A DNA stretch of 64,000 bases. It comes from Pseudomonas sp. ADAK18. Its GTDB lineage: Bacteria; Pseudomonadota; Gammaproteobacteria; Pseudomonadales; Pseudomonadaceae. Location: the NCBI RefSeq assembly GCF_012935695.1, contig NZ_CP052859.1:2087001-2151000 (forward strand), read 5' to 3'. Positions 4,095 through 19,757 of this stretch are shown here, piece after piece. Each line of letters opens with the position of its first letter. The first letter of the stretch is position 1. The notes beneath the pieces were generated by a model, which was given only the letters and a program-made list of their open reading frames with translations, was not told the origin of the DNA and made no database searches. Both the position numbers and the translations under genes were made by a program.

Positions 4095-4211
4095 GAGGTA
4101 CCTCGGCTGTATGCATTGTTCGCATGGTTGAGTTTTTTCTATAGCTGGAATTTATAGGGGCTGTGGTGATACAACCAACGTTATAAAATCATCCAGCTAT
4201 TCGGAAAACGC

Positions 4212-5105
4212 ATGGATAACACCCGCCACGTTCCCTCGCTGCAGGGTTTGCAGGCCTTGGTTGAAGTCAGCGACTGCGCCAGCTTCACCCTGGCGGCGCA
4301 GAAGCTATGCCTGACCCAGAGTGCGGTTAGCCGAAAGATCCAGCAGTTGGAGAGTCACTTCGGTGTGCCGATGTTTGTCAGGACCAGTCGCAGCCTGCGG
4401 CTGACGGCCGAAGGCGAGCAAGTACTGACCAGCGCGCGGAGCATCCTGGCGCAACTGAAGGTGCTGGAAGATCGCCTGTCGCCGCACAAGCGCCCGTTTC
4501 GCATCCGCCTGCATGTGTCGCTGGCGGTGCGCTGGTTGCTGCCCAAACTCAGCGACTTTTATCGCCGCCATCCGGATGTTTCGCTGGCGATCGAGACCGT
4601 TGCCACCGAGGTTGTCGAGCCTGCCAGTGACAGTGATGCGTATATCCGTTACCTGCCCCAACCTGCCCGTGATCCAGGCAGCCTGAGCTTGTTCCAGGAA
4701 GCCTTGGTGCCGGTCTGCGCTCCCGGGCTTGGACCATTGGCGTCGGTGGAGGATCTCGTGCGCTTTGCGCTGCTGCATCGTTCGGCAGACAAGCAGGATT
4801 GGATGACCTGGCTGGCAGCCAACGGTGCCAGGTCACTGGAGGCTTACCGGCATATTCCCTTCAATCTTGATGAGCTGGCGCTTGATGCGGCCGCACGCGG
4901 GCTTGGGGTGGCGATGACGGACATGACGCTGGCAGCGGAGTCGATCGAGCGTGGTCTACTGGTGGTGCCGTTTGGCCGCCCTTTGCAGACGGGCGGCGTG
5001 TATTCGTTGTGCCTGCAACCCTCGGCGGCGTCCCATCCGGCGTGTTCGGTGGTCATGCAGTGGTTCGCTCAGCAAGCGCAGCACAACGTTTCCCTGCCGT
5101 GCTAA
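4212..5105 (+). CDS. LysR-family regulator (GcvA-like), divergent from the oxidase
   Basis: 297-residue LysR transcription factor. The N-terminal winged HTH is clear: SDCASFTLAAQKLCLTQSAV, SRKIQQLESHFGVPMFVR and LRLTAEGEQVL. The effector domain resembles the GcvA group (FRIRLHVSLAVRWLLPKLSD, then FNLDELALDAAARGLGVAM). It is transcribed away from the oxidase and binding-protein pair with a 117-bp shared intergenic region, the usual arrangement for a local activator or repressor. The inducer, probably the amine substrate, is inferred. Confidence 0.92.
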   Translation: MDNTRHVPSLQGLQALVEVSDCASFTLAAQKLCLTQSAVSRKIQQLESHFGVPMFVRTSRSLRLTAEGEQVLTSARSILAQLKVLEDRLSPHKRPFRIRLHVSLAVRWLLPKLSDFYRRHPDVSLAIETVATEVVEPASDSDAYIRYLPQPARDPGSLSLFQEALVPVCAPGLGPLASVEDLVRFALLHRSADKQDWMTWLAANGARSLEAYRHIPFNLDELALDAAARGLGVAMTDMTLAAESIERGLLVVPFGRPLQTGGVYSLCLQPSAASHPACSVVMQWFAQQAQHNVSLPC

Positions 5106-5138
5106 CGTCACGTCTCAAATCACACGCCAAAATCCGCC

Positions 5139-5984
5139 ATGAAAATGCCCGACATAGACGCCATCCAGGCGTTCGTCCTAGTTGCCGAACTCAAGAGTTT
5201 CACCCGTGCCGCCGACGTCATCGGCGGCACTCAGGCGGCAATCAGCCTCAAGATCAAACGCCTGGAAGAAAGCCTCGGTCGCAAGCTGCTGGAACGCACG
5301 CCGCGACAGGTCACCTTGTCGGCCCATGGTCAGGCATTCCTGACCAGTGCCCAGCGCCTGCTGGACAACTATCAGGACGCGCTCAATTGCTTCGGCCAGC
5401 AGAAAAGAACCCTGCGAGTCGGCGTCAGCCATCACATCGTCGGGGCTGATCTCACACTGTGGCTACGGCGTCTGGCGAACACGGATCCGCAGGTGATCGT
5501 TGCCTTTAGCCTGGGTACATCCCGCGACATGCTGGTGAATTACGAGCAAGGCAAGCTGGATGTGGCGATGATCCTGCGCCATGACAACCGCCGCCAGGAC
5601 GGAGAAGTGGTGGGTGTCGAGCGATTTGGCTGGATGGCCTCACAGGAATTTGAACTTCAGCTCGACCGGGCGTTACCGCTGGCGATCCAGCCGGAGCCCT
5701 GCGGCATGCGCAGTATGGTGATGGCGGCGTTGCAGGCGCAGAACCGGCCCTGGGAAGAGGCTTTCGTAGGCAGCGGGATCCTCGCCATTGGCGCGGCAGT
5801 GATGGCCAGGATTGGTATCGGCGCGATGGTGGGGCGCATGGCGCCGAGTGGCTGCGTCGACGTGGAGACGCGCTTCGATCTGCCGCCACTGCCCAATCGT
5901 GACGTGGTGCTCTATACCGCGCAACGGGACGCCCAGGCCAAGGCGCTGATCCGCACCTTGAGCGCCGATATCCCGAGCCTTTGA
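5139..5984 (+). CDS. LysR-family transcriptional regulator
   Basis: 281-residue LysR protein. The HTH is at residues about 5-65 (SFTRAADVIGGTQAAISLKI, KRLEESLGRKLLERTPRQVT), followed by a short effector domain. It starts at ATG 5139 only 33 bp after the previous LysR gene, so the two may be co-transcribed although they are different subfamilies. Two LysR genes in tandem is uncommon. The target is unknown; no divergently placed enzyme gene is adjacent. Confidence 0.9.
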   Translation: MKMPDIDAIQAFVLVAELKSFTRAADVIGGTQAAISLKIKRLEESLGRKLLERTPRQVTLSAHGQAFLTSAQRLLDNYQDALNCFGQQKRTLRVGVSHHIVGADLTLWLRRLANTDPQVIVAFSLGTSRDMLVNYEQGKLDVAMILRHDNRRQDGEVVGVERFGWMASQEFELQLDRALPLAIQPEPCGMRSMVMAALQAQNRPWEEAFVGSGILAIGAAVMARIGIGAMVGRMAPSGCVDVETRFDLPPLPNRDVVLYTAQRDAQAKALIRTLSADIPSL

Positions 5985-5985
5985 A

Positions 5986-6111
5986 CTAGAAGATCAAGCG
6001 CCCGGCCCAGGCCAATAACAGTGCCAGGCTGCCGATGCCCAGGAGGGAGACGAAGAGGGCGGCGAAGTGGATGAACAGGGCGGTCAGCGGCGGTGTCCGG
6101 CGCGATTCCAT
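5986..6111 (-). CDS. 41-residue inner-membrane small protein
   Basis: ATG at 6111 is preceded by AAGGAA at good spacing. The product MESRRTPPLTALFIH... ends in one long hydrophobic helix (about residues 10-37) with a basic N-terminus, so it is a predicted single-span membrane protein. It ends one base after the stop of the convergent LysR gene. The reading frame stays open upstream to 6264 but that extension lacks a ribosome site. Function unknown. Confidence 0.6.
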   Translation of the reverse strand: MESRRTPPLTALFIHFAALFVSLLGIGSLALLLAWAGRLIF

Positions 6112-6235
6112 GGCGGGCTTCCTTGAGTGTCCGGGAAGCAAAAGTATGGGCAGCAGCCCGGCGCACAAACAGACGCTGCGGGCTATTTCAATGATAAGCA
6201 AAATGTAAGGCAAGGCTTGAAGCACTGTTAGGCTG

Positions 6236-6540
6236 CTACTTCCGTAGCCTGTCTTGAGCCTCACCGGGCAAGCGCAAATTCCGGGTCATAAGGCTGGCCC
6301 GACTTGAGCACGGCGTAAACAAAATGCAGCAGCTTGCGAATCGCACACACGTACCGAGCCGATTTTGAGATGGTCGAGCGCCCCTTAGCTGGCCTGAGTC
6401 ATGGCGCTGAGGGTTAAGCCCAGCAGCCGCAACCAGTTTGCGAGGATCGTCGTACTTACGTAGATCGCCCAGCTCGGCCAGCAGCCGCTCAATCCAGACG
6501 GAGCGACAGTCGAGATACAAGCAGCTGTCTAGAGGGAGAC
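6236..6540 (-). pseudogene. IS110-family transposase, C-terminal remnant
   Basis: Reading minus, VWIERLLAELGDLRKYDDPR and KLVAAAGLNPQRHDSGQLRG match the transposase_20 (RuvC-like/helix-hairpin-helix) end of IS110/IS116/IS902 transposases. The frame then breaks: the characteristic end (RKLLHFVYAVLKSGQPYDPE then FALAR and stop) is present but in a different frame. The first two thirds of the gene are missing. No transposase function is expected. It marks an old insertion between a LysR and a TetR gene. Confidence 0.75.
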
Positions 6541-7179
6541 CTAGGGGGTGACGCCGCGCAGCACCAGGTCACTGATAAACCCTAGCCAATCCTTTTGCTG
6601 GCTTTTGTTCGCCAGATCTTCCCCGAGAAATGAACTAAGGGTGTGCTGGTTGGAGTTGTAGAAGTAACACAGCGAGGCAATCATCAAATACACGTGCTTG
6701 ATGTCGACGTCCTCGCGAAATAGCCCCTGAAGCTGACCGGCCTCGATAATCGGCCGAAGCACCCCAACCGCTTCACCGGACAACCGGCGCAGTTCGCCGG
6801 ACTGCTTGGCATGCTTGCCCTTGTGCAGATTTTCGATGCTGAGGATGGCGACGAACTCGGGATGCTTGACGTAATAGTTCCAGATAAACGCCACCAGGTC
6901 TTGCAACGCCTGGACCGGCGCACTCAGGTCGAGCTTTAGCTTGCCTTCGGCCTTGTTGAACTGCTCGTAGGTGTGCTCCAGCACGCAGACAAACAGATGC
7001 TCCTTGCTGCCGAAGTAGTAATAGAGCATGCGGTCGTTGGAGTCGGCTTCTCGGGAGATGCTGTCCACCCGCCCGCCAGAGTAGCCGTCACGGGTGAAGA
7101 CCTTGATCGCCGCCTGGAGAATCCGCGCGCGCGTCTGGTCGGCTTGCTGGGCGCGAATGCCGGTCTTCTTGATCACCAT
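6541..7179 (-). CDS. TetR-family transcriptional regulator
   Basis: 212-residue regulator from the ATG at 7179 (MVIKKTGIRAQQADQTRARI); the frame is open further upstream but that part is not TetR-like. The HTH runs over RILQAAIKVFTRDGYSGGRV to SNDRMLYYYFGSKEHLFVCV. The ligand-binding domain is of the type with IWNYYVKHPEFVAILSIENL (TetR_C_like, RutR-type neighbours). It is divergent from the gamma-glutamyltransferase gene, 161 bp away, and could control it; this is inference. Confidence 0.88.
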   Translation of the reverse strand: MVIKKTGIRAQQADQTRARILQAAIKVFTRDGYSGGRVDSISREADSNDRMLYYYFGSKEHLFVCVLEHTYEQFNKAEGKLKLDLSAPVQALQDLVAFIWNYYVKHPEFVAILSIENLHKGKHAKQSGELRRLSGEAVGVLRPIIEAGQLQGLFREDVDIKHVYLMIASLCYFYNSNQHTLSSFLGEDLANKSQQKDWLGFISDLVLRGVTP

Positions 7180-7340
7180 CGGGGCTGTGTCCTGCACGGC
7201 GTAAAGGCCGCGAATATAGCATGGGCCTGATTGGGGCCGTTCCGTCACCGACAGGCTCTGTCATAAAAACGCCATGGTGCTTGGGCATTGGATCCTGGAA
7301 GGGCTACTTTTAACGCTTCAAATAACTAGAGTATCCACGG

Positions 7341-9065
7341 ATGAACTACCAACCCTTTACCCGAACATTGATAGCCACGGCGCTGGTGCTGACCGTCAGC
7401 GGTGTGCAGGCGGCGTCCCAGGCCCCGGTGGGTGGCGAAAACGGCATGGTAGTCACGGCCCAGCACCTGGCGACCCATGTTGGCGTCGATGTGCTCAAGG
7501 CTGGCGGCAACGCCGTGGATGCGGCGGTGGCAGTGGGTTATGCCCTGGCCGTGGTTTACCCGGCCGCCGGTAACCTGGGCGGTGGTGGCTTCATGACCGT
7601 CCAATTGGCAGATGGGCGCAAGACCTTCCTCGACTTCCGCGAAAAAGCCCCGTTGGCGGCCACTGCCGACATGTACCTGGACAAGGCAGGCAATGTCGTC
7701 CCCGACCTGAGTTCCAAAGGGCACCTGGCCGTTGGCGTACCTGGTACTGTGTCGGGCATGGAGTTGGCCCTGAGCAAATACGGCACCCTCAAACGTGCTC
7801 AGGTGATTGCCCCAGCCATCAAGCTGGCGGAAAGCGGCTTCGAACTGGAGCAGGGTGATATCGACCTGCTGCACACCGCCACCGACGAATTCAAAAAGGA
7901 CCAGGACCTGCGCGGGATCTTCCTGCACAACGGCGAGCCGATGCAGGTTGGCCAGAAACTGGTGCAGAAAGACCTGGCAAAAACCCTGCGGGAAATCTCC
8001 GCCAAGGGTACCGACGGCTTCTACAAGGGCTGGGTGGCCAAGTCGATTGTCGACTCCAGCCAGGCCGGCAAAGGCATTATCACCCAGGCTGACCTGGACA
8101 AGTACAAAACCCGCGAACTGGCGCCCATCGAGTGCGACTACCGTGGTTACCACGTAGTCTCCGCGCCGCCACCGAGCTCCGGCGGTGTGGTGATCTGCGA
8201 GATCATGAACATCCTTGAAGGCTACCCGATGGCCGAACTGGGCTATCACTCGGCCCAAGGGCTGCACTATCAGATCGAGGCCATGCGTCACGCGTACGTC
8301 GACCGCAACAGTTACCTCGGTGACCCGGACTTCGTGAAGAATCCGGTCGCCCACCTGCTGGACAAGGACTACGCCGCCAAACTGCGGGCCGCCATCGCGC
8401 CGCAAAAAGCCGGGATTTCCCAGGACATCAAGCCCGGCGTCTCTCCCCATGAAGGCAACAACACCACCCACTATTCCATCGTCGACAAGTGGGGCAACGC
8501 GGTGTCGGTGACCTACACCCTCAACGACTGGTTCGGTGCCGGCGTTATGGCCAGCAAGACCGGGGTAATCCTCAACGACGAGATGGACGACTTCACCTCC
8601 AAGATCGGCGTGCCGAACATGTACGGTTTAGTCCAGGGCGAAGCCAACGCCATCGCCCCGGGCAAAACCCCGCTGTCGTCCATGAGCCCGACCATCGTCA
8701 CCAAGGATGGCAAGGCCGTGATGGTGGTCGGTACGCCCGGTGGCAGCCGCATCATTACCGCCACCTTGCTGACCATCCTCAATGTCATCGACTACAAGAT
8801 GAACATTCAGGAGGCCGTGGATGCACCGCGCTTCCACCAGCAATGGCTGCCTGAGGCGACCAATATCGAGACGTTTGCCCTGAGTCCCGACACTCAGAAA
8901 ATCCTCGAAGGCTGGGGCCACACGTTTGCAGGTCCTCAGGATGCCAACCACCTGGCGGCAATTCTGGTCGGCGCACCGTCCCTGGATGGCAAGCCGGTGG
9001 GCAAAAACCGCTTCTATGGCGCTAACGACCCACGGCGCAATACGGGATTGTCCTTGGGTTATTAA
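7341..9065 (+). CDS. ggt: Gamma-glutamyltransferase (glutathione hydrolase)
   Basis: 574-residue periplasmic N-terminal-nucleophile hydrolase that cleaves or transfers the gamma-glutamyl group of glutathione. A signal peptide (IATALVLTVSGVQAASQAP) precedes the mature enzyme. Autoprocessing is expected at NNTTHYSIVDKWGNAVSVTY; T375, the first Thr of TTHYS, is the nucleophile and new N-terminus of the small subunit. GTPGGSRIITATLLTILNVI is the conserved oxyanion/glycine region. It is a stand-alone gene divergent from a TetR gene. Confidence 0.95.
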   Translation: MNYQPFTRTLIATALVLTVSGVQAASQAPVGGENGMVVTAQHLATHVGVDVLKAGGNAVDAAVAVGYALAVVYPAAGNLGGGGFMTVQLADGRKTFLDFREKAPLAATADMYLDKAGNVVPDLSSKGHLAVGVPGTVSGMELALSKYGTLKRAQVIAPAIKLAESGFELEQGDIDLLHTATDEFKKDQDLRGIFLHNGEPMQVGQKLVQKDLAKTLREISAKGTDGFYKGWVAKSIVDSSQAGKGIITQADLDKYKTRELAPIECDYRGYHVVSAPPPSSGGVVICEIMNILEGYPMAELGYHSAQGLHYQIEAMRHAYVDRNSYLGDPDFVKNPVAHLLDKDYAAKLRAAIAPQKAGISQDIKPGVSPHEGNNTTHYSIVDKWGNAVSVTYTLNDWFGAGVMASKTGVILNDEMDDFTSKIGVPNMYGLVQGEANAIAPGKTPLSSMSPTIVTKDGKAVMVVGTPGGSRIITATLLTILNVIDYKMNIQEAVDAPRFHQQWLPEATNIETFALSPDTQKILEGWGHTFAGPQDANHLAAILVGAPSLDGKPVGKNRFYGANDPRRNTGLSLGY

Positions 9066-9145
9066 GGCCGCCGAGCGTAGGGGCGAGGATGCTCGCTCCT
9101 ACAATATCCGCGCTTTGCAGCGGAATATTTTTTGAAATCAAGGGG

Positions 9146-9174
9146 TTGCAAGCCTCGGCAAATGAGTACATAAT
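9146..9174 (+). promoter_or_regulatory. Possible sigma-70 promoter upstream of tRNA-Cys
   Basis: TTGCAA (9146-9151) and CATAAT (9169-9174) are separated by 17 bp on the strand of the tRNA. The distance to the mature tRNA is about 130 bp, so a processed 5' leader would be needed; a nearer promoter is possible. Confidence 0.4.
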
Positions 9175-9305
9175 TGCGCCCATCGAACGCACTGAAGCAG
9201 AAAAAACTTCAATGTTTTCAATGATATAGAGTGGTGGCAGGTTTTACGTAGCCCACTCAAGTTTGTATGCGGTGAGTGTCAGCTTTAGGGACATTGACCG
9301 TTTGA

Positions 9306-9379
9306 GGCCGAGTAGCAAAATGGTTATGCAGCGGATTGCAAATCCGCCTACGCCGGTTCGATTCCGACCTCGGCCTCCA
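9306..9379 (+). tRNA. tRNA-Cys (anticodon GCA)
   Basis: 74-nt cloverleaf with CCA encoded. The acceptor stem GGCCGAG pairs with CTCGGCC, the anticodon loop is ATTGCAAAT with anticodon GCA, and the T-arm is GCCGGTTCGATTCCGAC. Its 3' half is the attachment site of the island that begins here. The 5' part is chromosomal and the 3' part has been restored by the incoming element. Confidence 0.97.
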
Positions 9380-9399
9380 CTCTTAAAAGCCCCGTAGAT
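9333..9399 (+). repeat. attL: left copy of the 67-bp island attachment repeat
   Basis: Starts in the anticodon arm of tRNA-Cys and runs through the first half of its terminator. It is identical over 67 bp to 32250-32316, after which the two copies diverge in the terminator loop. Repeats of a tRNA 3' half flanking an integrase gene are the standard scar of tyrosine-recombinase integration. Confidence 0.93.
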
Positions 9400-9886: not shown

Positions 9887-12454
9887 ATGGACGATTTTGA
9901 AAATAGTTATAAGGACGCGGTCGAAGCCGGTCAGCGCAATCTCCGAGCATCTAAGTTATTGAGTAACTGGTGCTTTCATGCTGAATTCGTCAGGTCTCCT
10001 GGTAGAGGAATGATTGAAGCTGAAACCAACCTTCCAATTGGGCACATGGGTGTCCAATGCAAGTTCTCCAAAATGAATTCGATGCAGGCATGGCTGTTAG
10101 AAGATGCTGCTTACGATTTTTATAAAAATAACTGTAAAAATTGTGACAAGCGAGTTCCAGTAGGTATCCCTAATATTATGGATTTTATTGGTCCTAGGGA
10201 GAAGGTTGCCGAAAATCGGAGAAGAGTACGCCAGGAAGAGGAAGCGCTAAGAAAGCAGAAGCAGTCCCATCGACAGGATGAGCGATCCAAACTTCGTTAT
10301 AAGCTGACTCTAGAAGAAACTTTTGTTTTAGACTTATTGGATGAGCTTGATCGAGAAGGAGTTGCAAGAGACGATCCACGCCTGGAAGAGCTTGCAAACC
10401 TTGCCCCTGAGACGTTTAGTAGGAAAATTGTTCAGCAACTATTACCAATAGTACTAAACGAAAACCTGCCGTACTCGATACCTGCCGCAAAGGCTATGCT
10501 TAAAGCCTCTTTAGAACCTGATGAGAAAGTTTCGGTGGCCGTCCGCCTGATAAGCTCTTATGAGATGTCATCAGCGGCTATTGATGTGATTTTGTCGGGC
10601 GCGGAAAAACTTTCAAACAACGACTTAAGAATGATTGTGCACCGCTTTGTATCGATAGCTTTAGAACCTCCGCCTAGCTCTAGCTTTGGGCGCAACCATA
10701 GAGTGATAATAAATGCTGTGCCGTTTCATTCGCTCTTCCAGAAGAGATATTCTGAAATTTGCGGCGAGATCGATCTGCTGCTGAACGATACTAATCCAGG
10801 AGCAATTGGAGGGGGCGTTGCGATTATACTCGCCTCTGATAACGCTGAGTTGCTTAAAAAACACGCTAGAAAAATCATCTCCACGTTAATGCGAAGGCGT
10901 ACCCTGCTGCCGAGCGAGCGGCGAGACAGTAGTGCGATCTATTATCTCCGGGAAGCAGCTTCGAAGCTCCTGGAAATTTTTCCAGATCTGGCGGATACAA
11001 TCATCCAGTCGTATCTCGCTGATAATGATAGTGTCGGTAGAGAAGAAGCTAGTAAAATCTATAGGTCTGTTCTTAAAAGTAACTATCGGGAAGTGGCTAA
11101 AATAGGAGATGCACAAAGAATAGCATTTAAACGACTGCTTTGGATTGCAATGCAAACTCCAGAGGATGGTATGAGCGACGCCGGGCAGTTCTTCAGGCAC
11201 TCCTGGGATGAATTCTCTAAACTTGGATCTGAGTTCTTTTATGAGTTAGTGGGCGCTGCGGCTACTCTGAGTCAGAGATATGAAGATGTGGATGCAGAGC
11301 GCCCTCTGGAGTTTTCAAGTGAAGTGCTTGAGGAAATGGATAGGCGAAATAGGCGTGCATCGATTGAAAATTTGCAGGCGGCTCTGATTGAATGGGCTGC
11401 AATTGGAGCGAAATCTAAGGGGCGCGAAGGTGTAGAGGATTTTCTCAAGTTATATAGAAATTTACCCCAAGAGCAGGCGCAAATGCGCGGTAAAATGATA
11501 TCGCACTTTTCAAAATTATTAAGCGGGGTTGAGAGCATTACACTAGTGCTCTCAGATTGGTATCGTGCCCTCATGGACGAAAGTGCAGTCGTCCGCTGCA
11601 GTGCAGTACAGGCGTGGGAGAAGGTGCCGTACGCTCTGGTGAAGAACTTCCCTGATCTATTCCTTGAGTCAATTTCTGTCTTGCTGGCAGACCCATACGT
11701 AATTGTTCATCGAGCAGCCGTGCGTACTCTACGACATAGGCCATTTCCCAAAGAGAAACGGAATTTTATCAATGGTGGGCTTTGGAATTTAGTTTTGCAT
11801 TACTCCAAAAAGGGTAAGCAGGAAGAATTCGTTGTCGACTGTTTAGACGCGCTTGTATTTCTTTGTCTTTCACCTGAGGAAAAAAAGGGAAGTATCGGAA
11901 GTTTCATTTCTGGTATTTTGATTGATTTGGAGGGGCATGCCCTTTACCACGCCATTGATCGGTTACATTATGGGTTCGAAGATGTTCCTGGGTTCGTCAA
12001 GGTGGCGCTGAAGTCAATTCAAAGTGGATATACTCGCTCCATCTCTATTGACGACTGTGCGTCTGTTATTTTGAAAACTTCACACTTTGAATTAAAAGGC
12101 TGTGTGGATGAGATGAGAAATGCTTTTTTTTCTCTTAAGCCATTCAAGCCAAATAATTTTTTCGAGTCTCTTCTATACTCAGCGGCGCTGAGTAAGGCTG
12201 GGGAATATGCAGTCGTAAGTACTTGTCTAAGAGAGTTAATTACAAGCATTCCAGCGGAAGCTCGCAACGAGCAATGGCGACTTGAAGTCGATTTGGTAGC
12301 GACAGCTTCCGATATAGAAAATGCCATAGAGACTGGAAATGAGCTCGGGGAGCTGATTGAAAGTTGGGGTAAGACTGTTATTAATCTGGAGTGTGAGAAT
12401 GAAGAGCGATCCAAACTTAGAAATATTCCGCCGAGTTTTTTCTTCGAGGATTGA
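9887..12454 (+). CDS. Large helical-repeat protein with Cys/His cluster (first gene of cargo pair)
   Basis: About 855 residues from the ATG at 9887 (MDDFENSYKDAVEAGQ); the frame is open back to a TTG at 9698 but the extra 63 residues look non-coding. The N-terminal 110 residues hold C29, H31, H53, C58 and a CKNC pair at C83/C86 in YKNNCKNCDKRVPVGIPN, a likely zinc or iron-sulfur site. A charged helix at about 105-140 follows, then some 600 residues of helical hairpins resembling HEAT/ARM repeats (VVRCSAVQAWEKVPYALVKN, VIVHRAAVRTLRHRPF). No catalytic motif or P-loop is visible. It overlaps the following nuclease-like gene by 56 bp, so the two are co-expressed. AT-richer than the host chromosome. 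I do not recognise the family; a sensor or scaffold role in a defence system is inference. Confidence 0.8.
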   Translation: MDDFENSYKDAVEAGQRNLRASKLLSNWCFHAEFVRSPGRGMIEAETNLPIGHMGVQCKFSKMNSMQAWLLEDAAYDFYKNNCKNCDKRVPVGIPNIMDFIGPREKVAENRRRVRQEEEALRKQKQSHRQDERSKLRYKLTLEETFVLDLLDELDREGVARDDPRLEELANLAPETFSRKIVQQLLPIVLNENLPYSIPAAKAMLKASLEPDEKVSVAVRLISSYEMSSAAIDVILSGAEKLSNNDLRMIVHRFVSIALEPPPSSSFGRNHRVIINAVPFHSLFQKRYSEICGEIDLLLNDTNPGAIGGGVAIILASDNAELLKKHARKIISTLMRRRTLLPSERRDSSAIYYLREAASKLLEIFPDLADTIIQSYLADNDSVGREEASKIYRSVLKSNYREVAKIGDAQRIAFKRLLWIAMQTPEDGMSDAGQFFRHSWDEFSKLGSEFFYELVGAAATLSQRYEDVDAERPLEFSSEVLEEMDRRNRRASIENLQAALIEWAAIGAKSKGREGVEDFLKLYRNLPQEQAQMRGKMISHFSKLLSGVESITLVLSDWYRALMDESAVVRCSAVQAWEKVPYALVKNFPDLFLESISVLLADPYVIVHRAAVRTLRHRPFPKEKRNFINGGLWNLVLHYSKKGKQEEFVVDCLDALVFLCLSPEEKKGSIGSFISGILIDLEGHALYHAIDRLHYGFEDVPGFVKVALKSIQSGYTRSISIDDCASVILKTSHFELKGCVDEMRNAFFSLKPFKPNNFFESLLYSAALSKAGEYAVVSTCLRELITSIPAEARNEQWRLEVDLVATASDIENAIETGNELGELIESWGKTVINLECENEERSKLRNIPPSFFFED

Positions 12455-13871
12455 GGTTGCGGCTGCACTAGAGGGCGCTTTGAAACCATCACAGCCTGAG
12501 ATTGAGCTACTTAAGGTGGCTTGCCTAAATTTTGAAGCGGTACTTTCAGAGCTTGATAAAGGGGCGGTCGAAGATCAGTATCGGGCGTATTGTACTGCGG
12601 TTTCCATATTTACCCCTTTGGCGGAGTGGAAACATAGTGTACGTAATGCTGTGCAAGACTCCCAAAGGTTTCTTAGTTCTGCAAAGCTAAGATCGTCGGA
12701 AATCGATCCATCCTTGAGTTTTGCTGCTAATGAGCGGCTAGTTATTTTTTTAGAGAAGATCGAGTGCCTAAAAGAGGTTGGCGAGTTGACTACTATCCAA
12801 AGGTACTTGAAGTGTTGGAGCTTACCACTACTTCTCTTTTCCAATCTACGCCATCGAAATGGACAGGGCCTTCGCGTTCCGAATCTTAATGGAAGCTCAA
12901 AAAAACTTGAGAAACTCGAGTCGACTGTAGCATTTTTGAAGTTTGATATCGACGGGGAGCCTGCAAAAAATTGGAACTATCTTAAACCAGGAACAGCTTA
13001 TGATCTCACAGTTGAAGTGAGGGTTTCACATTGGCCAAAAGGTGCAGGTGCTCTTTCGCTGAGGCCTGTAACGATAGATGTCCGGGAGCAGAGCTGGCTA
13101 CCATCCTTTAAGTTTAATGAGCCTAAGGGCGGTGGCCCGTTTTCTCTTACTGGTACGGGACGTGCCGTTCTGGAGGTAGCCCAATCGTTCGGATCGAGAC
13201 CATACGAATTTCTTTATGCTGCAGAGTTCGACGATATGAGTAAATGTCTCGATGTGGCAGTTGTAGGGCATCGCCGTTTGTTGCTTGAAGGCGTAGACGT
13301 GGTTTCTGATCCATTAAGTGGGTTCTCTAGTGTCGATCGGCACCTCCTCAGTATTAGAAATAGGTTGAGAGCTTACCCTGGCTTGAACTCTGATGACTTA
13401 TCTAATGCGATGATTGTCCTTGGTGGACTTGGAAATATTGCTGGCCAAGCTTTGAAAGATGCAACGTTTGAGGTCGGTACGTCGGAGAGAGCTTTCCAAA
13501 AAAAATCTACTGAAATACTTCGGAGCCGTAGTGATATTGGTGAAGGTCTACAGGGGCACCTTGAAGCGGCAGGCGGGATTACCGATCTAACATTTCGGAA
13601 TATTCCGATAGAGTTAAAGGTCGAACACCGAAAAACCCTGTTCCCTAAAGATTTTTCTAATTTTTTTAATCAAACTGCCTTATATGCAATCGGCTTGGGA
13701 AAACGCATTGGTATCCTGTCTGTCCTTGACGTATCTCCAAAATCTACACCCGTAGGTATTATTGAAGATGATATTCAAGTTTTTGATCATCAGGTCGGTC
13801 ATTCGTCAGTTGTGATTGTTGTGGTAGTTGTGCGTGGGGGTTTTCCTAAACCTAGTTCATACTCGAGATAG
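12399..13871 (+). CDS. Putative PD-(D/E)XK nuclease-domain protein (second gene of cargo pair)
   Basis: 490 residues from the ATG at 12399, which has GGAG seven bases upstream; the frame is also open to a TTG at 12357. Three parts can be seen: a helical N-terminal 160 residues; a beta-rich middle (about 175-295, LKPGTAYDLTVEVRVSHWPK and following); and a C-terminal domain in which GGITDLTFRNIPIELKVEH gives D396, E405 and K407 in the D-(X)8-ExK arrangement of PD-(D/E)XK nucleases, followed by the helix FNQTALYAIGLGKRIGILSV that often carries a conserved Gln. The gene overlaps the end of the upstream helical-repeat gene. It could be the effector of the pair. The nuclease call rests on motif spacing only. 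Confidence 0.72.
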   Translation: MKSDPNLEIFRRVFSSRIEVAAALEGALKPSQPEIELLKVACLNFEAVLSELDKGAVEDQYRAYCTAVSIFTPLAEWKHSVRNAVQDSQRFLSSAKLRSSEIDPSLSFAANERLVIFLEKIECLKEVGELTTIQRYLKCWSLPLLLFSNLRHRNGQGLRVPNLNGSSKKLEKLESTVAFLKFDIDGEPAKNWNYLKPGTAYDLTVEVRVSHWPKGAGALSLRPVTIDVREQSWLPSFKFNEPKGGGPFSLTGTGRAVLEVAQSFGSRPYEFLYAAEFDDMSKCLDVAVVGHRRLLLEGVDVVSDPLSGFSSVDRHLLSIRNRLRAYPGLNSDDLSNAMIVLGGLGNIAGQALKDATFEVGTSERAFQKKSTEILRSRSDIGEGLQGHLEAAGGITDLTFRNIPIELKVEHRKTLFPKDFSNFFNQTALYAIGLGKRIGILSVLDVSPKSTPVGIIEDDIQVFDHQVGHSSVVIVVVVVRGGFPKPSSYSR

Positions 13872-13997
13872 CTAAATTATATTGTGCTTGCGTAAATGCC
13901 TAATACTTTCAGCGCTAATCACTCTAGTAGGACTTTGATAAGTCTGAAGGGCTGCTTTTGTCCGTTTTTACCGATGGTGATAAATTCGCATAGTTGG

Positions 13998-15062
13998 TCA
14001 TTTCGTGGGTTTAACAATTTCACCAATTCTCCGATATACTTTCTTGGTCATTTCCTCAGTGGAGTGGCCCAGCAGGCGGCTTGCGTGCGTTAGTTCGATC
14101 TCGCTGGCAGCTTTCGGCCGGATGTCCTTGAACTGAAACTGCCGAATGGTGGCGGCCAGTACCGGGTCACCATCAGTCGCGGCCTTGATTGCTGCCTTCT
14201 CCCGTGCGTCGTCCCACCGATTGCGCAGCATCTGCTGGCTCATTCGAAGCCCTGACGCATTGGTGATCAGGGTTGAGGCCCTAATACCATTGATGGATCT
14301 GCGCTCCTGCAGGTCATCGATAAAGGTGCTCAGCCCGGACTGTACGCCTGCATCCTCCAAACGAAGGCGTAGACGCTTTTCAGTTTTGCCCTGACCAATC
14401 AGCAAAAAGCCGTTGTTCAAGTCGGTGGCTGCGATCTTGAGCACATCGGCGGGGCGTTGGCCTGTCAGGTAGGCAAGATCCATCGCGTCCTTGAGCTCCT
14501 GTACCGCCTCCGCGTATACCGCGTTCCATACGGTTTCACCGGCATAATAGTCCCGCGGCTTTTCCTTGTTGCGGCGAACACCAAAGCAAGGATTCGCTTT
14601 TTCAGTCAGGCCCCATTCACGTGCGATGGTGAACACATGGGAGAGCAGGGCGATCTCACGGTTGGCCCTTACCTTAGCTGTTCTAGCATCGCGATATTGA
14701 GCCACTACCTGGGGTGTAATCGACTCAATGGGCGCGCTCTCAAATGCTCTTCTGAGCTGCTTGAGTTCTTTACGGTTGTCGGACTGAGTACGAATGGACT
14801 TGCCTGGGATGATTTCCTTTTCATACCGGTCGAACACGTGGCCCATCAGGTGGTTGGGTTTAGGTGGTGCCTTGCGTTCAAGTCTGGCCCATTCTACTTT
14901 GGCCTGGTCGAGGTCTGTGCCCAGCGGGATTTCCTTCCGTTTACCGTCGGCAGTCCTGCCATCGTAGTAATACGATATCCAAACCTTTCCGGTTTTTCCC
15001 TTCCGGATGCGCCGTATCATCCGCGGTGGCAGATCTCGATTTGCTGTGCTTTTCTGGCGCAT
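13998..15062 (-). CDS. int: Tyrosine-type site-specific integrase
   Basis: 354-residue phage integrase that recombines attP with the tRNA-Cys attB. The N-terminal part carries the beta-strand DNA-binding segment (GKVWISYYYDGRTADGKRKE) seen in phage integrases, then the SAM-like core-binding domain. The catalytic domain shows the first Arg in YLTGQRPADVLKI, the box II Arg in FKDIRPKAASE (Lys replacing the usual His two positions earlier), His in RLLGHSTEEMT and the nucleophile Tyr in KKVYRRIGEIV. It ends convergently against the left cargo pair, 126 bp away. Start ATG 15062 lies three bases after the upstream DUF4224 gene, so the two are coupled. Confidence 0.93.
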   Translation of the reverse strand: MRQKSTANRDLPPRMIRRIRKGKTGKVWISYYYDGRTADGKRKEIPLGTDLDQAKVEWARLERKAPPKPNHLMGHVFDRYEKEIIPGKSIRTQSDNRKELKQLRRAFESAPIESITPQVVAQYRDARTAKVRANREIALLSHVFTIAREWGLTEKANPCFGVRRNKEKPRDYYAGETVWNAVYAEAVQELKDAMDLAYLTGQRPADVLKIAATDLNNGFLLIGQGKTEKRLRLRLEDAGVQSGLSTFIDDLQERRSINGIRASTLITNASGLRMSQQMLRNRWDDAREKAAIKAATDGDPVLAATIRQFQFKDIRPKAASEIELTHASRLLGHSTEEMTKKVYRRIGEIVKPTK

Positions 15063-15065
15063 AGA

Positions 15066-15302
15066 TCAACTCACATTCGAAAGGTCGAGCGTCCAGGTTT
15101 CGGCGACTGCGTTAGACGCCGAAGGCTTAACGCCTGCAAGTTTCAGCCGAGCGTATACCCGACCCACGATTGGGCGCCGGGCACCGGTTAGAACGAACTC
15201 CCAACGGTTGTCAGTTAGCCATTGGATTTGTTTGTATGGGAGCAGATAGCCAGTGATAGTTGTCAGCTCTTCCTCGGCGAGGGTTTCGCTTTGTATTTCC
15301 AT
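15066..15302 (-). CDS. DUF4224 family protein upstream of integrase
   Basis: 78 residues; begins MEIQSETLAEEELTTITGYL and contains PIVGRVYARLKLAG, features of the DUF4224 proteins that commonly precede integrase genes in Pseudomonas prophages. It is immediately upstream of int and probably co-transcribed. An accessory or excisionase-like role is suggested by position only. Confidence 0.75.
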   Translation of the reverse strand: MEIQSETLAEEELTTITGYLLPYKQIQWLTDNRWEFVLTGARRPIVGRVYARLKLAGVKPSASNAVAETWTLDLSNVS

Positions 15303-15375
15303 GAGGTGGTCCTCACCGCGTTTGGCGGCAGAAGGTGGCCAGCCGCTCGCCGGCAGGCATTTAGGAGGATGAGGG

Positions 15376-15780
15376 TTAGGCTGTTTCGACTTTGATTTGA
15401 GAGGTGATCCAATCGCGCATGCGAACCCAGCGTTGTTCCGGCGTTTCTGCCTGCCAACTGGCTTCGTCGTTCATGAAAACGATCTCTGATGCCATGGCAG
15501 GGGCGATATCAAAGGCCTCGCCTACGGCCTCTCGGTCGTCCGGATCAAGCGCCTTCATATCGACGCCACGTTTCGCCCCTAGCGCGCCGATGGTGCAGAA
15601 CTCACCATCAGCTTGCAGCGAGTCTGCGATAAGACGCTTAGCCGGCATCGCCTCCAGTGCATCACGCAGTTCAATCAAGAAGGCCTGCCCGCGCTTACCC
15701 TTGAGCGCAGAATTGACAGCTCCCCTCCAGCAGACCAGATCCCATCCGCTGTAATCATCGCTATATCCGCTGCGGCTCAT
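15376..15780 (-). CDS. Phage early hypothetical protein
   Basis: 134 residues from the ATG at 15780, which overlaps the stop of the upstream gene as ATGA, so translation is coupled. Sequence signs such as WRGAVNSALKGKRGQAFLIE and EFCTIGALGAKRGVD recall small unnamed proteins of Pseudomonas prophage early regions. No functional motif seen. Confidence 0.75.
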   Translation of the reverse strand: MSRSGYSDDYSGWDLVCWRGAVNSALKGKRGQAFLIELRDALEAMPAKRLIADSLQADGEFCTIGALGAKRGVDMKALDPDDREAVGEAFDIAPAMASEIVFMNDEASWQAETPEQRWVRMRDWITSQIKVETA

Positions 15781-16046
15781 GGCGTCACCTCCCGGCGCGC
15801 CCACCAGCAGACCGGGCCGTCGTCAGTATCGTGGATAGAAAGACAGAACCAGTCCTCACCATCAGGCCGGTTAGGCTCCCAGTAGCTGCAGTCCGGGTCG
15901 CCCGATTTGAAATAGCGCTCAGAGATCTCATCGTCCGCGTTTTCAATGCCCACCATCTTCACTGTCAGACCTTGCTTGGCGAGCCATTGCTTACACTTGT
16001 CGCCGTCACCCTCATCGAACGGTGGTAGGTCTGCGTGCCAGAACAT
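15777..16046 (-). CDS. Phage early hypothetical protein
   Basis: 89-residue acidic protein (FWHADLPPFDEGDGDKCKQW; DWFCLSIHDTDDGPVCWWAR), coupled by ATGA to the next gene. Trp and Asp rich, no known domain recognised. Part of the minus-strand early operon leading to the integrase. Confidence 0.7.
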   Translation of the reverse strand: MFWHADLPPFDEGDGDKCKQWLAKQGLTVKMVGIENADDEISERYFKSGDPDCSYWEPNRPDGEDWFCLSIHDTDDGPVCWWARREVTP

Positions 16047-16104
16047 TCCGTTCTCGTCTCTCCGGACGAGTTGGTGGCTTATCAGGCCTACACGATCCAG
16101 GCGC

Positions 16105-16590
16105 TCAATCTCTGCGAGCAGTAGCGCGGCTGACCTTTACGCAGTCTTCTGAATCCATCAGGTAATTTTCCTGGGATAGTCGTTCCTGCTCAGCCTCAAT
16201 GGCTGCAATCAATTGCTCAGGTAGCACCACCGCTACCGGCGCGGGTTCGCCCCGGCACAGGCACAGGCCCAGGCGCTGCGCAGCGTCGAGCGAGCCGTAA
16301 ACGAGCGGCGCATTTGCCAGTGTGGCCCGGGGCTGCTGCTTCAAGGTTTCGATCTGTTCGTCACGTTGATTTAGCAGCTGTTGCAGGGCGTCACGCTCCA
16401 GTCTCAGGATCTGGGCGCGCTTGAAGTTCTCCCCGCTGAGCGCTGTCCACTTTTCAATTTCTCCGGCCAGGTACGCTTCACGCGCCTGCCCCTGCTCAAT
16501 CTTCTGGTTGAAGTCACCGGCGTGAACCCAGAAACCTTTCCTCTCTGATGCCCCGACACCTTGCTGCGTCAATCGCTCCACGTCGCTCAT
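16105..16590 (-). CDS. Phage hypothetical protein with coiled coil
   Basis: 161 residues; a helical central part (REAYLAGEIEKWTALSGENF to LNQRDEQIETLKQQ) is predicted coiled coil, and the C-terminal part has LPEQLIAAIEAEQERLSQEN. Its ATG at 16590 overlaps the stop of the upstream gene (ATGA). Typical of small Pseudomonas prophage early genes; function unknown. Confidence 0.72.
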   Translation of the reverse strand: MSDVERLTQQGVGASERKGFWVHAGDFNQKIEQGQAREAYLAGEIEKWTALSGENFKRAQILRLERDALQQLLNQRDEQIETLKQQPRATLANAPLVYGSLDAAQRLGLCLCRGEPAPVAVVLPEQLIAAIEAEQERLSQENYLMDSEDCVKVSRATARRD

Positions 16591-16898
16591 ACAGCCTCTC
16601 TCGTTACCAGATCATGGGCACTCACAACCGTCATGCCGAGGCGTTCGGCGATCAGGACTTCCAGGCGGGCACCTTTTGAATGCTCCCAGCCGGGCAGGGT
16701 GGCCACGGTGTCGCAGTCCATCAGGGCGGCAATGTCGCGGCGCATGCAGTCGTTCCAGGTGCCGCCGCCGGGGTTGAGTTCGGCGGGATTGGTGACGGTG
16801 TGGCCGCCGGCGCGCAGGTTCGTGGTCATGGCGTGGAAGGCGGCGAAGTTGAGGTCGGGCAGGCCGGTCATTTGATCTCTTAGGTGAATTTTCCGCAT
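16587..16898 (-). CDS. DUF4406-type (nucleoside deoxyribosyltransferase-like) phage protein
   Basis: 103 residues. NPGGGTWNDCMRRDIAALMD and CDTVATLPGWEHSKGARLEV, LIAERLGM are the recognisable core of DUF4406, a fold related to nucleoside 2-deoxyribosyltransferases that is frequent in prophages. First gene of a four-gene minus-strand early operon in which two junctions are ATGA overlaps (16587-16590 and 15777-15780). Activity is unproven. Confidence 0.75.
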   Translation of the reverse strand: MRKIHLRDQMTGLPDLNFAAFHAMTTNLRAGGHTVTNPAELNPGGGTWNDCMRRDIAALMDCDTVATLPGWEHSKGARLEVLIAERLGMTVVSAHDLVTREAV

Positions 16899-16982
16899 TT
16901 AATAACGCCTCGATGGCGGAAGTGGTTTTCGTGAGTTATCTTTCGTTTGAATTAAAACCTTAACCTGCATAGGCATATAAAA

Positions 16983-17336
16983 TTGAGTTTCCCCCCAGCG
17001 CCACCACCACCTGGATCATCTAGTAACCTTGCTCAAGCGCTTGGATTTTCTGTGAATCCAATCGTTAAAGGACAGTGGTTTAAAGATCAAACGATGCGTC
17101 TAGATGGATGGCAGTTCCAGAATTGCAGATTTGACAGTTGCATGCTTCATGTCGCAACGACTTCAATTCGTTTAGATCGTTGCTATATCGATGAGCATAC
17201 TTCGATAATATTCGAAGGTATGATTTTGAATATTGTGCGGTTATTTCACGTGCGAAATAATTACATGAAAAATCAATTTCCTTATTTTGCACCGACGTAC
17301 CATGAAGATGGCACTATCTCCATTGGGGCTGCTTAA
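16983..17336 (+). CDS. Hypothetical protein (117 residues)
   Basis: Open from a TTG at 16983; Pro-rich start (SFPPAPPPPGSSSN), then alternating hydrophobic strands (WQFQNCRFDSCMLHVATTSI, RLDRCYIDEHTSIIFEGM) resembling a short right-handed beta-helix. AT-rich and opposite in direction to the phage early operon. It ends one base before the ATG of the next gene, so the two form an operon. Start uncertain, function unknown. Confidence 0.6.
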   Translation: MSFPPAPPPPGSSSNLAQALGFSVNPIVKGQWFKDQTMRLDGWQFQNCRFDSCMLHVATTSIRLDRCYIDEHTSIIFEGMILNIVRLFHVRNNYMKNQFPYFAPTYHEDGTISIGAA

Positions 17337-17337
17337 T

Positions 17338-17931
17338 ATGAGCGTTGAAGGAAAGTTCGAAACGACAGTTTCCCTTACCCCTCAAAAAAGCCAGATATTT
17401 ACAGTCGGTTGTCTAGTTTTGTCCGGCGTCAGTTTGTTAGCTAGCTGTGCCTTTCTATGGCATGGTAAGGCTGGATGGGAAGTGCCTCTCGCGGGATCAT
17501 TTGTATTCGGGGTGGGAGGTTTCGCGTGCTGGCTTCTATCCCATCGTAATTCAGAATTGTCTGGGGGTAGATCTACTCAGCTGACCGCTGATGAAAAAAG
17601 CATGACTCTGAGATTTGATCCGCGGAATCAGCCTACAAAGCAAATGCTGCTAATGTTTGCCACACATGCTGAGTCTATAGCTTTTAGAGAACGCCTACCG
17701 CACTCCCGTGGTTTGCTCGATGATTCGGGCAATGTAATCAAAGATTCTGAAGTAGAGGCAAATCTTCAAATTGAGAAACTAAACATGGTCGTCATCGAGC
17801 AGGCTGAAAAGCTAGACCGTCTAGCTTGTGGAATAAAATCGGATGCCCCAGGTTCGGGAGGAAGTATCTCTGCTCCGATGTATACCGGCGAAGAACCGGT
17901 CGAAGGTGTGACTTTAACGAGTGGAGTTTAG
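17338..17931 (+). CDS. Membrane-anchored hypothetical protein
   Basis: 197 residues from ATG 17338 (MSVEGKFETTVSLTPQKSQI). Two transmembrane helices lie close together near the N-terminus (about residues 21-39 and 47-66), followed by a cytoplasmic region of about 130 residues that ends with a coiled-coil-like stretch (EVEANLQIEKLNMVVIEQAE) and a Gly/Ser-rich tail. Directly follows the beta-rich 117-residue gene. Not recognised. Confidence 0.65.
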   Translation: MSVEGKFETTVSLTPQKSQIFTVGCLVLSGVSLLASCAFLWHGKAGWEVPLAGSFVFGVGGFACWLLSHRNSELSGGRSTQLTADEKSMTLRFDPRNQPTKQMLLMFATHAESIAFRERLPHSRGLLDDSGNVIKDSEVEANLQIEKLNMVVIEQAEKLDRLACGIKSDAPGSGGSISAPMYTGEEPVEGVTLTSGV

Positions 17932-17961
17932 CTAGTAGAGCGCCCTTTATTGCTGGCGTGA

Positions 17962-17980
17962 TTCGTTGATATGGGGTATT
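17962..17980. repeat. 19-bp direct repeat, copy 1
   Basis: ttcgttgatatggggtatt, repeated exactly at 18205-18223, each time 25-45 bp before a start codon with a good ribosome site. A related form (cgatatgggttat) lies at 23066-23078 before the MazG-like gene. Possibly a shared promoter or operator element. Confidence 0.55.
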
Positions 17981-18004
17981 GGTGCGACTCACAAAGGAGC
18001 CGGT

Positions 18005-18184
18005 ATGGATACGAACAAGCTGCTCAAAATTCTGATTGCCACCAACTTGCTCACGCTGATTTTGGCGGGAGTGTCTGCGTACTACGCCATGGATGCCCGG
18101 GACATTGCCGATGACGCCTACTCGGCAGCGGAGTCCGCCAGTAGTCACGCGAGCAATGTTGAGGACATCCTCAACAGCCGGTGA
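18005..18184 (+). CDS. 59-residue membrane small protein
   Basis: ATG 18005 with AAAGGAGC upstream. MDTNKLLKILIATNLLTLIL then AGVSAYYAMDARDIADDAYS: one N-terminal transmembrane helix followed by an Ala/Ser/Asp-rich helix. Shares its upstream 19-bp element with the next gene. Function unknown; small membrane proteins in cargo regions can be toxins or immunity factors, but nothing here proves that. Confidence 0.6.
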   Translation: MDTNKLLKILIATNLLTLILAGVSAYYAMDARDIADDAYSAAESASSHASNVEDILNSR

Positions 18185-18204
18185 CTTGTTCAGGTGTTGG
18201 TGTT

Positions 18205-18223
18205 TTCGTTGATATGGGGTATT
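18205..18223. repeat. 19-bp direct repeat, copy 2
   Basis: Exact copy of 17962-17980, 39 bp upstream of the ATG at 18263. Confidence 0.55.
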
Positions 18224-18262
18224 ACGGGTGACCGGCATGGAGCTGGATCAAGGAGATGGCAG

Positions 18263-18796
18263 ATGAAGGTTCGGGTTGAGACAGAAGATCTGGTCGCCTA
18301 CCTAAAAGGCCTGGCCGCTGCATCGATGCTTGTTGTGAGCATGTCAGGACCCGTCTTTGAAATTGGTAGCACAGTGAAATCTACCTATGACTTGGCCCAT
18401 GTTGCAGAAACTCATCAGGAGTTCTTTGGCAAGGGACCCTATTGGATAGAAAGCAAAGCTGGCATGGAGTGGAAGGAGACCCAGTTGCCCGACCCAGTCT
18501 TTGCAAACTACGCAATGGCCTTTGCCGTCCATGCAAAGCTTGCTCGATCTAGTCGCATAATCGGAGGTTACGAAGGCTTGCTGGTGTCCCTCGCGGATTT
18601 TGAGGTTATTCATAAATCTGACCCCAAAACGAATGGAGGGGTAGGAACGCTGCTGATAAAGCAGCCACTGGAAACAGCTGACCTTCAGAAACTCCGAGAC
18701 ATTCTTCTGGCTCAATCAGTGCTATTTACAATTAACGACGGTAGTGGTTACTTCAATCCCATGAACACCTTTATGGGGAACGGATTGCATTCGTAG
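18263..18796 (+). CDS. Hypothetical protein (177 residues)
   Basis: Starts at ATG 18263 behind AAGGAGATG. An N-terminal hydrophobic segment (AYLKGLAAASMLVVSMSGPV) may be a membrane anchor or signal. The remainder (EFFGKGPYWIESKAGMEWKE, YAMAFAVHAKLARSSRIIGG) matches nothing I recognise. Its 3' end overlaps the convergent gene at 18771-19115 by 26 bp. Confidence 0.6.
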   Translation: MKVRVETEDLVAYLKGLAAASMLVVSMSGPVFEIGSTVKSTYDLAHVAETHQEFFGKGPYWIESKAGMEWKETQLPDPVFANYAMAFAVHAKLARSSRIIGGYEGLLVSLADFEVIHKSDPKTNGGVGTLLIKQPLETADLQKLRDILLAQSVLFTINDGSGYFNPMNTFMGNGLHS

Positions 18797-19115
18797 GCTC
18801 GATGATCTCGTCGCCGGGGTCTTTCTGGATGGCGAGAAGGCTTTTGTTTTGGAATTCCCGCGCCACGTTTTGAGATATCTCGATTTCGTGGCGCGGCGGA
18901 TTCAGTAGAGGCTGGCACTTCGCAGCGCCCATCGCGTGCAAGTGATGAATCATCAGCGTCATTGCCTCGCCCTGCTCAGTAATGCCTGACCACTCCATCA
19001 GGTCGGCCAGCGCCTGCCGCGTTCCGGGGCGGACACGGAGTCTCAATTCCTCTTCGGCTGCCGCCACACGCTTCCTGGCAGTTTTGGCCGACCGTTCCTG
19101 TACTGACTTGGCCAT
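18771..19115 (-). CDS. Prophage hypothetical protein, possible ribbon-helix-helix type
   Basis: 114 residues, basic N-terminus (MAKSVQERSAKTARKRVAAA), then ELRLRVRPGTRQALADLMEW and EQGEAMTLMIHHLHAMG, a strand-helix-helix pattern resembling small phage DNA-binding proteins. Ends convergently against the preceding plus-strand gene. Confidence 0.6.
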   Translation of the reverse strand: MAKSVQERSAKTARKRVAAAEEELRLRVRPGTRQALADLMEWSGITEQGEAMTLMIHHLHAMGAAKCQPLLNPPRHEIEISQNVAREFQNKSLLAIQKDPGDEIIEPTNAIRSP

Positions 19116-19184
19116 GGCCTACCTCTTCTATTCCGCTGGCCGGCAGTGCGAGCCAGGTTTGACGTTTACGTTGCTGAGTGCGGG

Positions 19185-19517
19185 CTATGCGGCGCATGAA
19201 GTGCTGCCTTGGCGCGCTTTCGGGTAGTCGATGTCGTGGTTGGCGATGATCCGCTCAAAGGCTTTGTTGCCTATTGCCAGTTTTCCGCAAGCCTGCCGTC
19301 GGGTTATGCCCAGTTCCAGGAAGGCACGGATCCGTTCGGCGTACTTCGCGTCTCGGGCCTCGATTTGTTCCTGCCGGTGCCTATCGCTTGCACCGCCCCG
19401 GGCTGGTTTCTTGAAGGTAATCTCGTTCAGCTTGGCGTGCTTGTAGACGTTCCTCCGGCTGATGCCGAGGGCTGCGGCCGCTTCTGACTGGGTGTGGGTG
19501 CCGCTTAACTGGCGCAT
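19185..19517 (-). CDS. Helix-turn-helix phage protein
   Basis: 110 residues from ATG 19517. Two HTH-like segments: TQSEAAAALGISRRNVYKHA near residues 9-28 and LGITRRQACGKLAIGNKAFE in the C-terminal half, with a charged linker (DRHRQEQIEARDAKYAERIR). Looks like a phage regulator or a small-terminase-like DNA binder; which one cannot be decided. Its 5' part is overlapped in another frame by the truncated small-family gene at 19381-19757. Confidence 0.65.
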   Translation of the reverse strand: MRQLSGTHTQSEAAAALGISRRNVYKHAKLNEITFKKPARGGASDRHRQEQIEARDAKYAERIRAFLELGITRRQACGKLAIGNKAFERIIANHDIDYPKARQGSTSCAA

Positions 19518-19757
19518 ATGCTCTATCAGCTTTAGGCGGGCCTGCTCTCTGACATCGAGGGCAGCCTAGCCACTCCCTGCTTGATATGCCCACGTTCTCG
19601 CCAATGGTGTGCAAGGCGCCGCGTACGTTATCTCCGGCCACGTCATGGCCCAGGCTCTCGACGAGTAGGGTCAGGTCCATCATTGCGGCTTCCAGGGCGA
19701 GTTGGTTTTCGTAGATACGTTCGAGGGTGTCGGGGAGGGAGTATCCAGGGGAGGGCA
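19381..19757 (-). pseudogene. Truncated member of the ~70-residue small protein family (copy 1)
   Basis: From ATG 19757 the first 60 residues (MPSPGYSLPDTLERIYENQL, ALEAAMMDLTLLVESLGHDV, NVRGALHTIGENVG) match the family members at 25657, 43143 and 43531. After GENVG the family C-terminus is replaced: the frame reads on out of register into the downstream HTH gene, giving about 60 unrelated residues. This suggests a deletion that fused the two genes. Confidence 0.65.

Follow-up and report, generated by a model that had tools for sequence, protein, structure and literature searches.

An Olokun-labelled gene pair in a Pseudomonas tRNA-Cys island joins a predicted HEAT-like protein to a putative nuclease related to a Lamassu LmuA variant

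Olokun reportedly goes back to a paper by Millman et al. of 2022, which is said to include a tested Escherichia coli pair. In the literature that we searched, largely without subscription papers, there was no account of an Olokun mechanism and none of a division into two families. A table row in PMC12926258 lists Olokun among the systems whose mechanism is “unknown,” a table in PMC10855318 places it under nuclease activity, a passage of PMC12592470 describes it as not thoroughly characterised, and it is named in surveys (PMC10121019; PMC12629846). For Lamassu, passages of PMC10586767 state that the effector domains of LmuA are N-terminal and the C-termini variable, and that the effectors attack host and invader without discrimination. 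Here, we analysed a 64,000-nt stretch of the genome of Pseudomonas sp. ADAK18 (assembly GCF_012935695.1, contig NZ_CP052859.1, positions 2,087,001–2,151,000 of the forward strand; hereafter, the window), in which two overlapping genes encode the proteins that we call OloA and OloB. An earlier note on this DNA, made from the sequence alone, had been unable to match the pair to a named system; the models of PADLOC-DB 2.0.0, however, assigned it to Olokun (OloA, 184.7 bits; OloB, 146.2 bits), with both profiles largely covered. Judged by sequence comparison, the pair belongs to a family distinct from the proteins that score highest with these models, and the C-terminal domain of OloB is homologous to the C-terminal nuclease of the LmuA variant recognised by the PADLOC model PDLC03853.

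The OloB model of PADLOC scored 541.9–688.4 bits for another kind of protein (one genome in one search and five in another) and 298.6 bits for a more divergent member of that kind, whereas OloB of the window type (the window, G165, and four further genomes) scored 143–188 bits, about a quarter of the high-scoring members; a fragment in G494 with only 34.6 bits was excluded from these ranges. The high-scoring pair (e.g., L021/G047 and E. coli JML285 in L049) resembles that of the window in that its genes are adjacent in the order A–B, it matches the same two models, and its OloB also carries a nuclease-like motif. However, this motif lies near the N-terminus of a protein of about 570 aa rather than at the C-terminus of one of 490 aa, the A protein has 574–580 aa (two complete cases) rather than 855 aa, and inspection by eye showed nothing equivalent to the Cys4 head of OloA. 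In the high-scoring OloB, D50 and K70 were invariant in 7/7 rows, and the usual middle acidic residue of the motif, read by eye, was not conserved. When OloB of one kind was compared with that of the other by BLASTP, nothing better than E 0.013 in a single comparison resulted. Likewise, hhalign detected no kinship: the probability was 0.7% (OloB) and 0.3% (OloA), or ≤ 0.5% when larger alignments were used and the OloB domains were taken separately. When the proteins were cut into pieces, identical profile columns paired with non-corresponding parts of the two kinds: columns 1–176 of the OloB profile took up the nuclease-like part of the high-scoring kind, but the non-nuclease N-terminus of the window kind, and the nuclease domain of the latter aligned to columns 261–551.

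On the BLASTP, hhalign, and profile-column results, we reject the view that the pair is an ordinary member of the high-scoring Olokun family; the distinction is drawn from those high scorers, and the tested E. coli pair may be of either kind. The simplest reading of the scores is that the PADLOC Olokun models are chimeras built from two mixed families. The earlier note had named an unambiguous match to an established defence family as evidence against a new system. Such a match formally exists through PADLOC, but the model appears chimera-like and its high scorers show no kinship with the window proteins (by BLASTP for OloB and by hhalign for both). The description “undescribed system” was therefore wrong for the label, which is Olokun, and may be right for the protein family.

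The two genes themselves are well supported. At E ≤ 0.001, 222 homologues of OloA and 306 of OloB were found, which rules out chance open reading frames (ORFs). In these searches, up to 8,000 candidates were scored each time, and the best 120 of 222, 306, and 410 matches were listed. Homologue lengths were 851–858 aa in 111 of the 120 listed for OloA, and 129 of 133 aligned rows started within three columns of the chosen Met; a longer TTG start of ORF A at 9698 is therefore unsupported. The same applies to a TTG start of ORF B at 12357, because 114 of 120 listed homologues had 486–494 aa. The earlier note's first protein of about 855 residues and its 56-bp overlap were both borne out, as was the conserved neighbourhood that it had proposed to look for; the two genes are in different frames. 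OloA was located directly upstream of OloB in 16 of 17 loci, the remaining one being a contig fragment. Of the 13 loci in which the overlap was measured, 12 had 56 bp and one, the distant G165 locus, had 23 bp. Two loci at contig ends (L005 and L016), one with oloA in two frames (L014), and one with oloA interrupted (L013) were excluded from the overlap count. In the interrupted locus, from Aliivibrio sifiae (L013:32-10047), oloA was split by an insertion of just under 9 kb, and oloB matched over its full length.

The gene order was kept across several phyla, and the identities of OloA and OloB co-varied closely between loci (r = 0.97 for 78 pairs without the distant locus and 0.99 for 91 pairs with it). 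Among the 14 loci compared, the nearest relatives of the window OloB were in Geomobilimonas (72.2% identity), a Calditrichia metagenome-assembled genome (69.6%), and Sulfurospirillum (69.6%), followed among other Gammaproteobacteria by Marinobacter (66.3%), E. coli, Serratia, and Yersinia (∼64%), and Aliivibrio (56.2%). Full-length oloB occurred in 1 of 199 same-genus genomes, namely the window's own, and a broken piece in one more. The position of the nearest relatives outside the Gammaproteobacteria, together with this rarity within the genus, fits horizontal spread. Plasmids gave only weak partial matches (3 of 72,556 records). We consider the conserved, mobile two-gene module to be real.

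We next describe OloB, whose predicted layout comprises N-terminal helices (7–138), an Ig-like beta-sandwich (175–298), and a PD-(D/E)XK domain (∼310–490). The arrangement D396-x8-E405-x-K407 is placed as first claimed, and these three residues were present in 254/254 rows, as were E363, Q367, H387, and Q425; Y429 was present in 253. OloB has the conserved D, the (D/E)-x-K, and the flanking E/Q motifs expected of PD-(D/E)XK nucleases. Conservation rows include duplicates (130 distinct of 133 for OloA; 252 distinct of 254 for OloB, the window's own OloB included). The core of the PD-(D/E)XK fold is alpha-beta-beta-beta-alpha-beta. In an AlphaFold2 model built from a 98-row alignment (mean predicted local distance difference test score, 83.1), E363 and Q367 are on helix 363–375, D396 is directly ahead of strand 397–399, E405 and K407 are on strand 402–409, and Q425 and Y429 are on helix 416–432, with a further strand behind it. 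In their succession, these elements of the OloB model fit this core.

The kinship with Lamassu was found at the level of this domain. The nuclease domain of OloB matched PDLC03853 with 37.4 bits, and hhalign of the C-terminal domain against six LmuA proteins that this model had detected gave a probability of 97.1% (E 6e-11, 176 columns). The aligned motifs are E/Q, GG-x-D, E-x-K, QTxxY, and a closing PS, and the LmuA variant has the same motifs in a C-terminal nuclease domain, with a similar closing (P)G...PS. In this variant the nuclease domain is C-terminal, unlike the N-terminal position given in the passages of PMC10586767. The likeness concerns the C-terminal domain, the only part compared, and OloB has an Ig-like middle domain. 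The partners also differ: in the two Lamassu loci checked of the six, LmuA stands with the SMC-like LmuB and with LmuC, whereas the partner of OloB is a predicted HEAT-like solenoid. In both of these loci (L042 from G615 and L043 from G319), lmuC, lmuB, and lmuA were in a row, lmuC of the second being recognised by BLAST to the first. No adjacent LmuB was found for the window pair, in that OloA matched no LmuB model and none was present in six other island ORFs scanned. An assignment of OloA as an SMC or LmuA-like protein was rejected on the same LmuB result and an hhalign probability of 0.4% to LmuA.

OloA is predicted to form a helical superhelix of the HEAT/ARM type (∼241–811) behind a cysteine-rich head. 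Of the C29/H31/H53/C58/C83/C86 cluster first described in this head, the four Cys are kept (C58, C83, and C86 in 133/133 rows; C29 in 132/133, with one gap), but the two His are not strict (H31 in 120/133 and H53 in 130/133). The robust motif is therefore a Cys4 with two frequent but dispensable His, and the head probably binds metal. HEAT/ARM solenoids of the importin type and of the PP2A scaffold subunit resemble the predicted superhelix; however, they have no solid sequence relation to OloA, and a common repeat arrangement proves no function. A search of NCBIfam with the pair gave nothing convincing.

The surroundings of related loci were analysed in 89 of 154 listed flanking ORFs, chosen as nearest the pair; these scans listed the commonest 25 of 65 PADLOC families, and the commonest 25 of 108 families in the integrase-domain scan. 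Integrase domains were present in 6 of the 89 ORFs, DSR1-like genes were present in the flanks of four related loci (two Serratia, one Yersinia, and one E. coli), and other PADLOC families also occurred, most of them once only. A large helical sensor- or scaffold-like protein beside a PD-(D/E)XK-motif protein, the form from which an antiphage module had been proposed, is thus found on mobile islands and in some cases beside defence genes. In E. coli PSJ-29 (L020:12001-20838), the pair adjoins a tRNA-Thr and an integrase, and downstream of it come a 240-aa ORF and a SIR2 gene of the DSR1-like type. Both of these also lie behind the pair in two Serratia loci and in one from Yersinia, with identities of 81–90% and 80–97%, respectively. 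The 240-aa ORF was considered as a conserved third gene, but it had no match in the window at 13871–20000 and was not counted as part of the module.

The module is very probably a defence system, and we think it reasonably likely that it works as a mobile two-gene unit in which OloA, as sensor or scaffold, controls OloB as effector nuclease. OloA, with its predicted solenoid and probable metal-binding head, would serve as both sensor and scaffold, and OloB would use its helical and Ig-like parts to dock on OloA and would be kept inactive there. An infection signal, such as a phage protein or nucleic acid, would be met by OloA, so that OloB is released or assembled; OloB would then cut DNA with its C-terminal domain, which resembles that of Lamassu LmuA. 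Translational coupling through the gene overlap may set a fixed proportion of OloA to OloB. Control of an effector by a sensor or scaffold is supported by how closely the two genes are paired, by their overlap, and by the split between a large helical protein and a nuclease; the LmuA kinship suggests an effector that is inactive until triggered.

Several results weigh against this proposal. OloA and OloB had no convincing Pfam match and no sequence relative among solved structures in the Protein Data Bank (PDB), the Cys-rich head of OloA was predicted with low AlphaFold confidence, and the predicted template modelling score of the OloB model was just 0.57. A PDB fold search with the whole OloB model contained no PD-(D/E)XK nuclease by title in 50 listed rows, and in a viral fold library, where the matches were mostly unnamed and weak, one Mrr-type restriction endonuclease appeared at rank 19 (E 0.024, probability 0.72). 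A search of 50,697 phage records at E 1e-5 yielded no relative of OloB either, and two pattern-based scans of viral contigs confirmed none. The listed PDB rows were taken up by the Ig-like and helical parts, and the absence of the nuclease fold among them is no evidence against it. Among the closest known counterparts are Integrator subunits, 7ycx chain G and 8rc4 chain d, which we take to be INTS7 and INTS4; these are eukaryotic and align with a high root-mean-square deviation and with the nuclease domain outside the alignment, and the likeness is probably a mere common arrangement.

The broader question is what the Olokun label covers. We give about even chances to the view that it spans two unrelated two-gene systems with a common logic, a helical-repeat protein followed by a nuclease, of which the one in the window would couple a Lamassu-type effector to a HEAT sensor with a metal-carrying head, where Lamassu has an SMC sensor. 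A more conservative account, which we regard as possible but doubtful, is that the window pair simply is the experimentally tested Olokun family and that the high-scoring pair was wrongly merged into the models. Both models do match the window pair over most of the model lengths, and the window kind is present in E. coli and could be the tested one; the other family, however, scores 540–690 bits against 143–188, has proteins whose sizes agree more closely with those of the models (556 and 596 positions), and is commoner in E. coli, where DNA-level matches were found in 14 of 5,426 genomes compared with 6 of 5,426 for the window kind (lower bounds from queries of other species, which differed between the kinds, so that the comparison is rough). 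If the two-system view is correct, one effector domain serves two different detection machines. The common nuclease would allow effector swapping between Lamassu and a HEAT-scaffold system to be tested directly. The split would also matter for surveys, which count Olokun by profile models: the PADLOC models tested here span two unrelated pairs, and where models mix families, counts merge two systems and laboratory work on one is wrongly transferred to the other.

As for the activity of the pair, it might be a restriction-like machine in which OloA, with its Cys4 head and HEAT-like scaffold, recognises foreign or modified DNA directly and OloB cuts at once, with no abortive response. We hold this only tentatively: PD-(D/E)XK motifs are common in restriction-type enzymes, OloA has its Cys4 head, and a distant relative of OloB carries the name “Restriction endonuclease” in one source, but no DNA-recognition domain was identified in the pair, and the closest nuclease relative found is that of Lamassu, whose effectors are indiscriminate according to the passages of PMC10586767. 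Two overlapping genes with a putative nuclease in an integrated island would also suit stabilisation of the island by a toxin–antitoxin or addiction module in which OloA neutralises OloB; this seems improbable, since a neutraliser of 855 aa would be unusually large by general knowledge and defence genes adjoin some related loci. We consider it similarly far-fetched that OloB is a nuclease for DNA repair or for the maintenance of mobile elements rather than for defence. The integrase beside the pair in the window and those in the flanks of its relatives are compatible with such a role, whereas the mostly single occurrence of the flanking PADLOC families indicates that the pair is not bound to any single element, and its distribution within the genus is patchy. 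Defence by a sensor-controlled nuclease is the reading that we prefer.

The coordinates of the pair and its island are summarised in the table below. The earlier note had placed the genes between attL and the integrase of a tRNA-Cys island and had called them AT-richer than the chromosome, and our analysis supports both observations. The island is 22.9 kb long, and a perfect 67-bp direct repeat marks its ends; the two genes are located between the tRNA-Cys attachment (att) site and the tyrosine integrase. Their GC contents are 44.7% (ORF A) and 45.0% (ORF B), compared with 59.2% at 1–9300, 51.9% at 14000–30000, and 56.4% at 33000–64000. A joined-flank query of 99 same-genus genomes did not reveal an exact empty site among the matches listed; apart from the window's own, these ended between the junction and about 60 bases beyond it, which indicates that the right flank is not common to those genomes. 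Scans for promoters and terminators gave chance-level results only.

Table. Coordinates of the gene pair and of the island features in the window
Feature	Position	Strand	Remarks
tRNA-Cys	9306–9379		
Left att repeat	9333–9399		67 bp; 3' part of tRNA-Cys and bases beyond; perfect direct repeat of 32250–32316
OloA-like gene	9887–12454	+	855 aa from ATG; N-terminal Cys4, then predicted helical-repeat solenoid
Codons of the Cys/His cluster C29...C86	9971–10144	+	Putative metal site
Gene overlap	12399–12454	+	56 bp; different frames
OloB-like gene	12399–13871	+	490 aa from ATG; predicted helices, Ig-like sandwich, and C-terminal PD-(D/E)XK domain
Nuclease motif codons	13485–13685	+	E363...Q367 / D396 / E405-x-K407 / Q425xxxY429
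Tyrosine integrase of the island	13998–15062	-	
CI-like repressor in the island	20963–21766		
Right att repeat	32250–32316		67 bp; perfect direct repeat of 9333–9399

In several same-genus genomes (e.g., G677, G691, G707, and G711), a second att-like copy was located ∼9–53 kb from the first, and the tRNA-Cys site (9306–9399) may be an integration hotspot in the genus. At the right end of the island, a plus-strand gene at 26332–27249 encodes an HNH protein with a type IV restriction-like match and is followed by a 1534-aa ORF on the same strand (27480–32084). This ORF had no match in Pfam, PHROG, PADLOC, or the PDB; six plasmid records cover 87–88% of it at 25–35% identity, and two weaker plasmid matches (23.5% identity over 37%) are annotated as NACHT domain proteins. 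These two genes are possibly a second, STAND-like defence module. The same island contains a further HNH endonuclease domain protein at 23463–24491 on the plus strand (Pfam HNH_2, 45.4 bits; PADLOC HNH).

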